From Rhodobacteraceae bacterium HLUCCO07 (lineage in GTDB: Bacteria > Pseudomonadota > Alphaproteobacteria > Rhodobacterales > Rhodobacteraceae): DNA of 64,000 bases. Positions within the stretch are counted from its first letter, which is position 1, and the number at the start of each line of letters is the position of its first letter. Made by a program: the position numbers and the translations under genes. The stretch spans positions 186,001-250,000 of the forward strand of contig LJSU01000019.1 of NCBI GenBank assembly GCA_001314705.1, read 5' to 3'. Of this stretch, positions 15,152 to 51,985 are shown piece by piece. The notes under the pieces are model-generated. The model saw only the letters and a list, made by a program, of their open reading frames with translations, ran no database searches and was not told the origin of the DNA.

Positions 15152-15185
15152 CTTCATCTTGCCCCAAATACTCCCGCCGGAGGCG
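15152..15185 (-). repeat. 34-bp dispersed repeat (copy 1 of 2 identical)
   Basis: The segment is identical to 39460-39493 and partly matched at 46074-46097. On the minus strand it reads CTCCGGCGGGAGTATTTGGG and onward, a weak CTCC/GGAG hairpin followed by TATTT. In each case it lies downstream of a minus-strand gene, here beyond the pntAB terminator. Confidence 0.7.
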
Positions 15186-22768: not shown

Positions 22769-22804
22769 GGTGACAGCGCCAGGACGGCGATCTATCCTGT
22801 GCGC

Positions 22805-23158
22805 ATGAGCACCCCGATTTCGTCGATCCGCAATCTCGGCCCCGCCACGGAAGCGGCCTTTGCCCGAGCCGGAATCACCTCGGCCGAAGAGTTGCGCGAA
22901 ATCGGCGCCGATGCCGCCTATGCCCGCCTGCTCGAAACCGGCCAGCGCCCGCATTTCATCGCCTATTACGTGCTCGTCATGGGCCTGCAGGGCCGCCCGT
23001 GGAACGATTGCAAGGGCAAAGAGAAAGCCGCCCTGCGCAAGCGATTCGACGCGCTCCGGGACAGCGGACATGACAAGGGCCGCTCCGATCTCGAAGCGGC
23101 CCTCAACGCGATTGGCGTGATCAAACGAAAGGCAGGCGTCCTCGGGAACACCCGATAG
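22805..23158 (+). CDS. TfoX/Sxy C-terminal domain protein
   Basis: A 117-residue protein. ISSIRNLGPATEAAFARAGI followed by TSAEELREIGADAAYARLLE is the helix-hairpin-helix-like TfoX C-terminal domain, and GLQGRPWNDCKGKEKAALRK completes it. The N-terminal TfoX domain of full-length Sxy competence regulators is absent, as in many alphaproteobacterial homologues, so a competence role should not be assumed. I chose the ATG at 22805; a GTG two codons upstream is possible. Confidence 0.82.
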   Translation: MSTPISSIRNLGPATEAAFARAGITSAEELREIGADAAYARLLETGQRPHFIAYYVLVMGLQGRPWNDCKGKEKAALRKRFDALRDSGHDKGRSDLEAALNAIGVIKRKAGVLGNTR

Positions 23159-23187
23159 GGCGTGTCGGGTTTGATCGAATTCGCCCT

Positions 23188-23402
23188 GCCCGGAACGGCG
23201 GCGAAGCCGCCCGGGCAGCACACCATTGCCCGGCAGGCGATTCTTCGCAGAAAAATCTGCCGAGAGGGGGCCGCCCCCCGGCCGGGTGCTTTCGAGGGGT
23301 TGCGCGTCGCCCGAAGCAGGGAAAGACGTTGCAAGATAAACTGCCCAACGCTGACGTTGCGAGCACCCGACCGCGGGCCTGTGCTGCCCTTTCGTTGGGC
23401 AC
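23188..23402 (+). repeat. Dispersed palindromic repeat, interrupted copy
   Basis: It shares three blocks with 51911-51985: block 1 (23188-23221, 33 of 34 bases equal, itself a GCCCGG/CCGGGC hairpin), block 2 (23269-23290) and block 3 (23381-23402). In this copy 47 bp separate blocks 1 and 2, and about 90 bp separate blocks 2 and 3, the latter flanked by direct repeats GTGCT. The element fills most of the 349-bp gene-free stretch 23159-23507; I see no coding signal in the rest. Confidence 0.75.
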
Positions 23403-23507
23403 GAGACGAATCCGATTAGCTGCGATAAGCCACAAGCATGGATCGCCAATGACCCGAGAGCGCAACGCGCGGCAGGGGATTGGTGATGCAGTTATTCCCG
23501 AAACGCC

Positions 23508-23930
23508 TTAGCCGACCAGTTCGAGACCCGAGAAGAAGAACGCGATCTCTTCCTTCGCCGTGTCCGGCCCGTCCGAGCCGTGAACCGAGTTTTCCCCGAT
23601 CGACAGCGCGAATTCCTTGCGAATGGTGCCCGCGTCGGCCTCCGCGGGGTTGGTCGCGCCCATGATCTCGCGATTGCGGGCAATGGCATTCTCGCCTTCC
23701 AGCACCTGCACCACGATCGGCTCGGAAATCATGAACTCGCACAGCTCGTCAAAGAACGGGCGGTCCTTGTGAACGCCGTAGAAGGTCTGCGCCTGCGCCA
23801 GCGTCAGCCGGATGCGTTTCGACGCAACGACGCGCAGCCCACCCTCTTCCAGCATCGCGGTGATCTTGCCGGTCAGGTTGCGCTTGGTGGCGTCGGGTTT
23901 GATGATGCTGAACGTGCGTTCCAGTGCCAT
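23508..23930 (-). CDS. ndk: Nucleoside diphosphate kinase
   Basis: A 140-residue enzyme that balances NTP pools by phosphoryl transfer through a phospho-His. The N-terminus [20 protein letters not shown], the [15 protein letters not shown] segment and the catalytic His in ENSVHGSDG are all intact, and the length is normal. It is a single gene, downstream of (and on the same strand as) an MFS gene whose stop lies 90 bp away. Confidence 0.98.
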
Positions 23931-39459: not shown

Positions 39460-39493
39460 CTTCATCTTGCCCCAAATACTCCCGCCGGAGGCG
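39460..39493 (-). repeat. 34-bp dispersed repeat (copy 2)
   Basis: Identical over 34 bases to 15152-15185. It begins only 2 bp after the stop codon of the M20 gene at 39496 on the same strand, as a 3'-end element would. Confidence 0.72.
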
Positions 39494-51478: not shown

Positions 51479-51883
51479 ATGAAAGCCCGAGTCAAATGGA
51501 TCGACAACCGCAGTTTCATGGGCCAGACCGAAAGTGGCCATGCCATTGCCTTCGGCGCGGCGCAGGACGGTCTGAAACCCGGCCCCTCGCCGATGGAACT
51601 CCTGCTGCTGGGCACCGGCGGATGCGCGGCCTATGACGTGGTGCATATCCTCGAACGCGGCCGCGAACCCGTCGAAAACGTCGAGGTCGAGATCGACGCC
51701 ACCCGCGCCGAAACCGACCCCAAGGTCTATACCCGCATCCACATGCATTTCATCCTGCGCGGTGAGGGTCTCAACCCGGCGAAGGTCGAACGCGCCATTT
51801 CCCTCTCGATCGGGAAATACTGCTCCGCCTCTGCGATGATGGCCGCCACCGCCGAACTGACCCATGATTTCGAGATCGTTTAG
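51479..51883 (+). CDS. OsmC family peroxidase-like protein
   Basis: A 134-residue OsmC/YhfA-type protein. The first conserved Cys is in LLLGTGGCAAYDVVHIL and the second in ISLSIGKYCSASAMM, the pair used for thiol-based hydroperoxide reduction in OsmC/Ohr proteins. GPSPMELLL is the family signature. I chose the ATG at 51479 behind GAGAGG; an ATG at 51458 overlaps the upstream stop. It probably belongs to the fur-DMT transcript. Confidence 0.9.
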   Translation: MKARVKWIDNRSFMGQTESGHAIAFGAAQDGLKPGPSPMELLLLGTGGCAAYDVVHILERGREPVENVEVEIDATRAETDPKVYTRIHMHFILRGEGLNPAKVERAISLSIGKYCSASAMMAATAELTHDFEIV

Positions 51884-51910: not shown

Positions 51911-51985
51911 GCCCGGAACGGCGGCGAAACCGCCCGGGCAGCACCTGGCCGCCCCCCGGCCGGGTGCTGCCCTTTCGTTGGGCAC
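51911..51985 (+). repeat. Dispersed palindromic repeat, compact copy
   Basis: The three blocks found scattered over 215 bp at 23188-23402 are here continuous in 75 bp: 51911-51944, 51947-51968 and 51964-51985, where blocks 2 and 3 share GTGCT. It is rich in short stems (GCCCGG/CCGGGC, GGCCG/CGGCC). It lies in the 239-bp gap between the OsmC and kynU genes and has no coding potential. Confidence 0.75.

Follow-up and report, generated by a model that had tools for sequence, protein, structure and literature searches.

A modular, folding dispersed repeat of Rhodobacteraceae whose compact copies appear to have lost their core

Results

The repeat and its parts

The window analysed here, a 64,000-nucleotide stretch of the genome of Rhodobacteraceae bacterium HLUCCO07, very probably carries at 23158-23431 one copy of a non-autonomous, modular and strongly folding dispersed repeat of the host family, as judged by comparing copies within and between genomes. 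The element is real and widespread, and it appears originally to have been read the wrong way round. The earlier note set a copy at 23188-23402 against a compact copy, which we find at 51911-51985, and took the longer one to be interrupted by an insertion, whereas the comparison of copies indicates that the compact copy is the derived form. We refer to the host genome (3.43 Mb) as G000, to the other two genomes of the host genus as G001 and G002, all three belonging to the Aquicoccus clade, and to individual loci by L numbers. The family is Rhodobacteraceae in the GTDB sense; NCBI places Aquicoccus in Paracoccaceae, order Rhodobacterales.

The window copy runs from about 23158 to about 23431, beyond the limits of 23188-23402 first given for it, and all its features are described on the plus strand. 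It adjoins the TAG stop codon (23156-23158) of the upstream gene (22799-23158) and starts after the TA within that codon, the likely target dinucleotide. Its left end is an imperfect terminal inverted repeat, GGGCGTGTCGGGTTTGATCGAATTC (23158-23182), which matches the left-end pattern without mismatch; with up to 3 mismatches allowed, this pattern has 23 matches over the three genus genomes, 21 of them in G002 and 1 in G001. The 5' hairpin GCCCGGAACGGCGGCGAAGCCGCCCGGGC (23188-23216) follows, and 224 of the 225 inner-stem cells in 45 copies are paired. Arm 1 is divided into a first half, GGGCAGCAC (23213-23221), which pairs with arm 4, and a second half, GGCCG (23269-23273), recognised by comparison with module-free copies (L035 vs L095). 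The halves are separated by a 45-bp nested hairpin module (23224-23268), which also occurs as an independent repeat of the host family and corresponds to the extra 45 bp or so that had been noticed between blocks 1 and 2. Arm 2, CGGCCGGGTGCT (23279-23290), is followed by a core with a conserved ATAAA (23291-23361), arm 3, AGCACCCGACCG (23362-23373), which pairs with arm 2 (helix 2, 92.9% of cells paired), and arm 4, CGGGCCTGTGCTGCCC (23374-23389), which pairs with arm 1 (helix 1, 94.0% of cells paired). The copy closes with a 3' tail kept among copies, TTTCGTTGGGCA (23390-23401), and a right end, GACGAATCCGATTAGCTGCGATAAGCC (23405-23431, boundary approximate), which is a degenerate inverted copy of the left end.

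This layout changes the meaning of the motifs first noticed in the sequence. The 90 bp at 23291-23380 are indeed bounded by GTGCT at 23286-23290 and 23381-23385, and AGCACCC (23362-23368), TGCCCAACG (23342-23350) and CGTTGGGCA (23393-23401) can all be read there. The left GTGCT belongs to arm 2 and the right one to arm 4, so that the supposed target-site duplication is a pair of arms of the element, and the 90-bp segment consists of the core, arm 3 and part of arm 4. AGCACCC and GGGTGCT do mirror each other, yet they are not simple mirrors but two of four alternating arm copies of about 12 bp.

The dispersed nature of the repeat was borne out by blastn searches of the host genome, which returned 54 matches to the 86-bp compact region and 61 to the 261-bp full region (E ≤ 10; weak matches and pieces of one copy included), and the copy number exceeds chance. 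The exact 5'-hairpin pattern was found in 40 stretches among 84,980 species genomes, a collection from which the host's own records were possibly left out, and all 40 belong to Aquicoccus porphyridii or to MAG S24.Bin137. We catalogued 96 copies with a 5' hairpin in the host genus (30 in G000, 23 in G001 and 43 in G002), allowing up to 6 substitutions in the pattern; L052, L056, L022-L024 and L281, for instance, stand outside the 96 because the catalogue needs this hairpin. Full copies consist of a terminal repeat, the 5' hairpin, arm 1 (GGGCAGCACACGGCCG), a C-rich bulge, arm 2 (CGGCCGGGTGCT), a core of about 70 bp with ATAAA, arm 3 (AGCACCCGACCG), arm 4 (CGGCCCTGTGCTGCCC), a short tail and the other terminal repeat, in this order. 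Arms 1 and 3, taken as forward, are nearly identical in sequence, and arms 2 and 4, taken as inverted, are their inverse. The core was called in 69 of the 96 copies, with 9 of the 30 copies in G000 lacking a detectable one, although such calls are made by pattern and miss some variants, for example the diverged core of L014. Two further parts are optional, namely the 45-bp module splitting arm 1 (22/96 copies) and a hairpin tip between arms 1 and 2 (20/96).

Loss of the core

The compact copy lies behind a gene with a TAG stop (51881-51883) and contains a 5' hairpin (51911-51939) and a fused hairpin (51936-51972) made of arm 1, arm 2 and the tail of arm 4. The fused hairpin has a fold z of -3.69 and reads as a derivative of core deletion. 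The site of the compact copy (C8:237905) holds a full element in the sister genome G002 (L109). In G001 an element is found at this site in the opposite orientation, which suggests that inversion or independent insertion also happens.

By their flanks, 20 pairs of copies could be placed at corresponding sites of two genomes, in some cases from one flank only. At six sites with both flanks matched (C8:237905/L109, L033/L100, L035/L174, L050/L117, L073/L160 and L177/L097) the core is present in one genome and absent in another, and each genome contributes two core-less copies: L001 and L073 in G000, L174 and L177 in G001, and L100 and L117 in G002. At the L035/L174 site the core is kept in two genomes of three. 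The core-less copies are joined between arms 2 and 4 in L001, L100 and L117 and between arms 1 and 3 in L174 and L073, while L177 retains the 5' hairpin alone. A further core deletion in G002, L282, is again joined between arms 1 and 3, and L281 has lost the hairpin and arm 1. Since one insertion would give one breakpoint, the several breakpoints, mostly at direct repeats inside the palindrome, argue for deletion by slippage. The compact form would be the full form minus its core, lost repeatedly, in most cases through joining of the direct repeats that arms 2 and 4, or 1 and 3, provide; slippage is the mechanism we infer, in which the arms would fold during replication and bring the direct repeats together, leading to deletion of the core. 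What looks like an insertion between short direct repeats can thus reflect recurrent deletion, and this is not visible from one genome alone.

Separately, five loci (L296, L289, L022, L023 and L106) form a short core-less subfamily with the same ends and an arm sequence of its own, as though one product of deletion had started to move independently.

The 45-bp module

The suggestion that one repeat unit is nested in another fails for the 90-bp segment and holds for the 45-bp segment at 23224-23268. Searched alone, window positions 23214-23290 gave matches in 30 of 149 family genomes, the host among them, and the module takes the form CATTGCCCGGCAGGCGATT-loop-AATCTGCCGAGAGGGG elsewhere. We inspected one locus in each of the 29 other genomes. 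At four of the 29 loci (L242, L245, L251 and L255, in G011, G108, G082 and G109, respectively) the module lies within arm 1 of a copy of the element, at the same position in the arm as in the window copy despite the differing arm sequence, and no element was seen around the module at the other 25. The module is a separate small palindrome found repeatedly in arm 1, where it either inserts by preference or has long been inherited. From 28 loci we chose ten frames that adjoin or span the module for their coding look; seven matched transposases or insertion sequences in Pfam (one below the curated cut-off), a proportion that is no rate given this choice, and the remaining three were one RelE toxin and two frames without a Pfam match. 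The 45-bp palindrome adjoins or crosses insertion-sequence genes in several genera (L243-L270), and it may preferentially parasitise other mobile DNA. Among the 149 genomes, the 30 module carriers and the 15 carriers of PF01797 overlap in 8 (hypergeometric p = 0.003), which may reflect merely the load of insertion sequences. A plasmid search returned one record, matching just the stretch with the 45-bp module, and a phage search gave no match to the element.

Mobility and insertion sites

In G001, G011 and G005 the upstream gene and ndk are directly adjacent at the window copy's site, with no element between them. Flank tags of G002 copies yielded twelve comparisons with empty sites for nine copies. 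The empty site of L106 reads GATCCTAGAACTCC, and the filled junctions have TA within CTAG on both sides, with two elements in a row at this site. L096 compared with its empty site fits TA and L104 is compatible with TA, while six of the nine (L092, L103, L112, L118, L151 and L165) are too diverged to yield a duplication. L010 and L170 have clean empty sites, but with flanking duplications of 13 and 14 bp rather than TA. We examined flanking direct repeats in 73 copies, 74 having a readable 3' end. The longest flanking matches include the 17 bp of L120, which looks like the end repeat of a neighbouring copy, and L142 has a 12-bp match lying in a GTTAAC-containing motif found in several such spacers; of the long matches, only those of L010 and L170 are backed by empty sites, and none of the shuffled flank pairs reached 13 bp. 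The sites without an element (the window site, L106, L096, L010 and L170) point to the whole element as the mobile unit. The idea of a small non-autonomous element, first put forward for the 90-bp segment, does not apply to that segment, and it is the whole element that appears to behave in this way.

Two observations on individual sites may be added. L010:1503 and L170:2589 each lie about 1.1 kb from another element copy. At the window copy's site, G002 carries a different repeat (L184) with matching inverted ends, AAGCGTTCC...GGAACGCTT, between two TA, and the stop codon upstream of ndk seems to have been hit by two unrelated elements.

In host-genus copies the right end repeats the left one imperfectly and in inverted form. 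By eye, no inverted repeat was visible outside the element in G060, so such terminal repeats may be special to the host genus, and the structured part may be older than the present ends. A search by the end pattern (up to 3 mismatches) found no autonomous relative among the 13 of 23 genus loci inspected, where degenerate ends could escape; all 13 were element copies, short core-less relatives or a remnant. The end pattern matched in 4 of 149 family genomes, the host's own included, and no transposase with the element's ends was found. We propose that a transposase acting in trans on the terminal repeats would have moved the element, and that a DDE-type enzyme with TA duplication would be a more likely mobiliser than a REP-associated tyrosine transposase (RAYT).

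Gene context

Of 30 genes ending at an element border, 22 stop with TAG, as against 39 of 310 other genes at the same loci (Fisher p = 2e-12; just copies with a recognised 3' end were tallied). This excess suggests that insertion typically takes place at the TA within a TAG stop, and because the element begins with G the gene keeps its stop after insertion. Presence and absence at matching sites in the host genus, together with the abutment on TAG, fit insertion at TA. Once 8 edge copies and 6 copies inside genes were omitted, 82 host-genus copies could be classified by their neighbouring genes as convergent (41), tandem (34) or divergent (7). Convergent contexts are enriched over the 10 of 55 gene pairs of the window, a baseline from one 64-kb stretch (p = 1.5e-4), and the shortage of divergent contexts (7/82 vs 9/55) is not significant (p = 0.18). 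Both orientations of the element occur in tandem contexts (12 vs 22). Among 40 loci from four other genera, 18 of the 31 classified are convergent (p = 2.6e-4) and none is divergent, 7 undecided loci and 2 inside genes being omitted; given these figures, a role at gene 3' ends is possible. Genes were called for these tallies with a codon-usage script, and sites common to two genomes were counted once per genome. Gene 3' ends, and convergent ones above all, would be tolerated as landing sites because the stop codon survives.

Pairing and fold

Going by their sequences, the arms can form one long nested hairpin, with 1 opposite 4 and 2 opposite 3, and arms 1 and 2 are also able to make a local hairpin. 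We scored both schemes on 53 copies, 47 of them from other genera and 6 from the host genus (alignment A5, 53 matches from 48 hand-chosen loci). In the nested scheme (1:4 plus 2:3) 93.5% of cells are paired and 19 of 27 pairs show both-side changes. The covariation score is 0.404, compared with an average of 0.099 for shuffles and at most 0.095 for slid versions; a smaller set of 24 copies gave 94.3% and 18 of 27 pairs. The local scheme (1:2 plus 3:4) has 82.6% of cells paired and a score of 0.336, with a strong helix 1:2 (91.3%) and a weak helix 3:4 (71.0%), so that both schemes covary, in cross-genus alignments that were fitted to the nested scheme and lean towards it. Column 13 is paired in 53 of 53 copies in the long-range scheme and 41 of 53 in the local one, and column 9 in 43 of 53 and 52 of 53, respectively. 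ATAAA is kept in 48 of the 53 copies.

Within the host genus the two schemes are hardly separable (91.8% nested vs 91.4% local). Here, alignment A1 comprises 40 copies selected by rule (core, no module, no tip, readable 3' end) plus 5 added by hand, and A2 comprises 28 of these 45. RNAalifold recovered helix 2:3, the 5' hairpin and short stems only from the host-genus alignment, with a covariation term of almost nil. Folded singly, full copy L109 adopts the local 1:2 hairpin (z only -1.75) and the window copy the nested form (z -2.07 and -2.87 on the two strands). As all four arms change together, the strand could switch between folds. On a stronger reading, the whole family would share a structured nucleic acid not described before, in which the four arms change together and the folded strand can switch between the nested (1:4 plus 2:3) and the local (1:2) form. 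We regard this as doubtful, having slightly lowered an already low estimate because arm types are not strictly genus-specific. If it were true, a trans-acting partner, either a transposase or an RNA-binding protein, would read the fold and the ATAAA loop and co-evolve with the arm types, and the element would be either a mobile element of a new, fold-dependent class or a regulatory RNA that moves.

Distribution across the family

Of 149 family genomes, each standing for one genus, 83 had matches at E ≤ 0.001 to a covariance model of 28 host-genus copies (R1), where E-values are rough and up to 22 candidates were scored per genome. Fourteen genomes, the host included, have at least 10 matches and 29 have a single match. 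The loci examined from other genera (the best locus of 19 genera and 40 loci of four of them) are the best-scoring ones and no random sample; they share the layout and differ in arm sequence. Examples of arm types are AGCGTCTGGCCG in G060, ATCGACGGGCCG in G082 and AGCGCCTGCCCG in G077. Each of these three genomes has more than one arm type, so that arm types are not strictly genus-specific. A second model, R2, was run on 289 alphaproteobacterial genomes (up to 11 candidates each) as the main control against chance matches from base composition, a control that applies to R2 and not to R1. It matched three genomes, all of the host family, and none of the 285 genomes outside it, of which 19 were listed as outside and the rest were assigned from the order of the list. 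A fourth host-family genome among the 289 matched neither R2 nor R1. In G152 (L309), the element occurs in direct tandem at four places, with copies about 203-206 bp apart.

Several arm types on one fixed fold, spread over more than half of the sampled genera, offer a natural series for studying the movement of bacterial palindromic repeats and the reasons for their position at gene 3' ends.

Discussion

The alternatives to a mobile element that repeatedly loses its core differ in how well they accommodate these data. The GTGCT flanks on both sides and the existence of compact copies are what would be expected if the 90-bp segment were a small element inserted into a compact repeat with a 5-bp target-site duplication, an account we now consider highly improbable. 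Against this account, 69 of 96 copies have a called core, placed between arms 2 and 3, and G002 (L109) carries the full element where the window has the compact copy. Breakpoints in core-less copies are of several kinds, and the segment includes arm 3, the partner of arm 2, together with half of arm 4, the partner of arm 1; the sequence comparison led us to reject the insertion. The earlier note had named a predominance of the longer form in related genomes as grounds for reading the compact copy as a deletion, and the called cores show this predominance. It is unlikely, too, that core-less and module-bearing states were spread by gene conversion between dispersed copies instead of arising by fresh deletion at each site. 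Conversion would suit the finding that the 45-bp module and the hairpin tip also differ at matching sites (L048/L091, L051/L087 and L035/L095), but the remnants at two of the six sites (L073 and L177) have breakpoints of their own, and in three of the six core-less copies the junction runs between arms 2 and 4, as slippage predicts.

Selection for a function at gene 3' ends, as a bidirectional terminator, an mRNA 3'-end structure or a small RNA, with mobility being incidental, is a possibility that we hold tentatively and at rather less than even chances. The convergent 3'-end location, the strong pairing with both-side changes across genera, the retention of ATAAA in 48 of 53 copies and the folding z values of the window copy on its two strands (-2.07 and -2.87) speak for such a function. 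Copies are nevertheless missing at matching sites between sister species, 9 of 30 copies in G000 have no detectable core, tandem contexts show both orientations (12 vs 22), and no T tract of an intrinsic terminator was found at the element's 3' end. Template switching can keep the arm copies of a mobile palindrome complementary without selection on RNA, and it could by itself have kept these arms complementary. A scan of 23050-23550 found two terminator-like sites (0.4 expected), both on the minus strand, one formed by an arm and the nested module (23282-23259) and the other inside the upstream gene; a promoter scan of the sequence found nothing. Lastly, the element might be of the REP-dimer or BIME kind, with a RAYT moving it into tetranucleotides that resemble CTAG or GTAG. 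It shares with REPs, as PMC3733652 describes them, two opposed palindromic units around a structured spacer, a convergent or 3'-end location and termini beside TAG stops. We judge this origin improbable, since the host-genus ends form long imperfect inverted repeats, the arms are 12-16 bp long compared with the 8-9-bp stems described for CGTC REPs, and the RAYT domain PF01797, present in 15 of 149 family genomes as against 83 of 149 with the element, has no match in the host genome (5 of 14 control genomes, E. coli among them, were positive). Mobilisation by a RAYT within the host was rejected on account of this absence.

Non-autonomous movement of the whole element can be set beside known systems. 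Two reports on REPs (Di Nocera 2013, PMC3733652; Nunvar 2010, PMC2817692) describe palindromic units in alternating orientation around a spacer, located mostly in convergent or unidirectional gene gaps and near stop codons, often supplying or abutting TAG, and CGTC families with an 8-9-bp stem, AT at the first pairs and a CGTC-type end. The present element resembles the REP dimers and BIMEs of the GTAG and CGTC superfamilies so described in its alternating palindromes around a spacer, its gene-end location and its TAG stops. It differs from that description in being much longer, with a fixed layout of about 170 nt, a 5' hairpin and a conserved core, in its GC-rich arms of 12-16 bp, whose types vary between and within genomes while the layout is kept, and in having terminal inverted repeats in the host genus and a host without RAYT. 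The length and GC richness of the arms also fail the stem criterion of CGTC REPs as given there, although many copies contain CGTC or CGTT in the 3' tail. Like bacterial MITEs, the element is short, has terminal inverted repeats, TA at its border, filled and empty sites and many copies; unlike them, it has no parent insertion sequence that we found, and its interior is strongly structured and common to several genera, including G060 without visible terminal repeats. BOX elements of pneumococcus are modular, with different copies holding different sets of modules, which is also true of this element, but the present element loses its core by deletion and one of its modules exists as a repeat of its own; to our knowledge the BOX sequence is unrelated to that of the Rhodobacteraceae element. 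Rickettsia palindromic elements are small palindromes that can lie in or beside genes, a likeness confined to the 45-bp module, which differs in being seen beside or across insertion-sequence genes and inside arm 1 of the larger element.

Rfam 15 matched tRNA only at gathering score in the window and nothing in 20 loci of element sites in other genera; with E up to 10, the window copy gave two matches far below gathering score. No title or abstract start in the PMC open-access literature, among the matches listed, describes this repeat. The element is undescribed as far as those matches and Rfam show, its general kind, a mobile palindromic repeat at gene ends, being known. The unusual feature is the combination of a fixed fold with changing arm types.

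Other repeats in the window

A second, different dispersed repeat lies beside ndk at 23437-23506 and contains ATCGCCAATGACCCGAGAGCGCAACGCGCGGCAGGGGATTGGTGAT. It occurs at the same site in G002 and has further matches in G000, G001 and G011. In addition, two identical 34-bp copies of CTTCATCTTGCCCCAAATACTCCCGCCGGAGGCG are found 24 kb apart, at 15152-15185 and 39460-39493, and on the other strand this sequence reads as a GC-rich hairpin followed by GAGTATTT.
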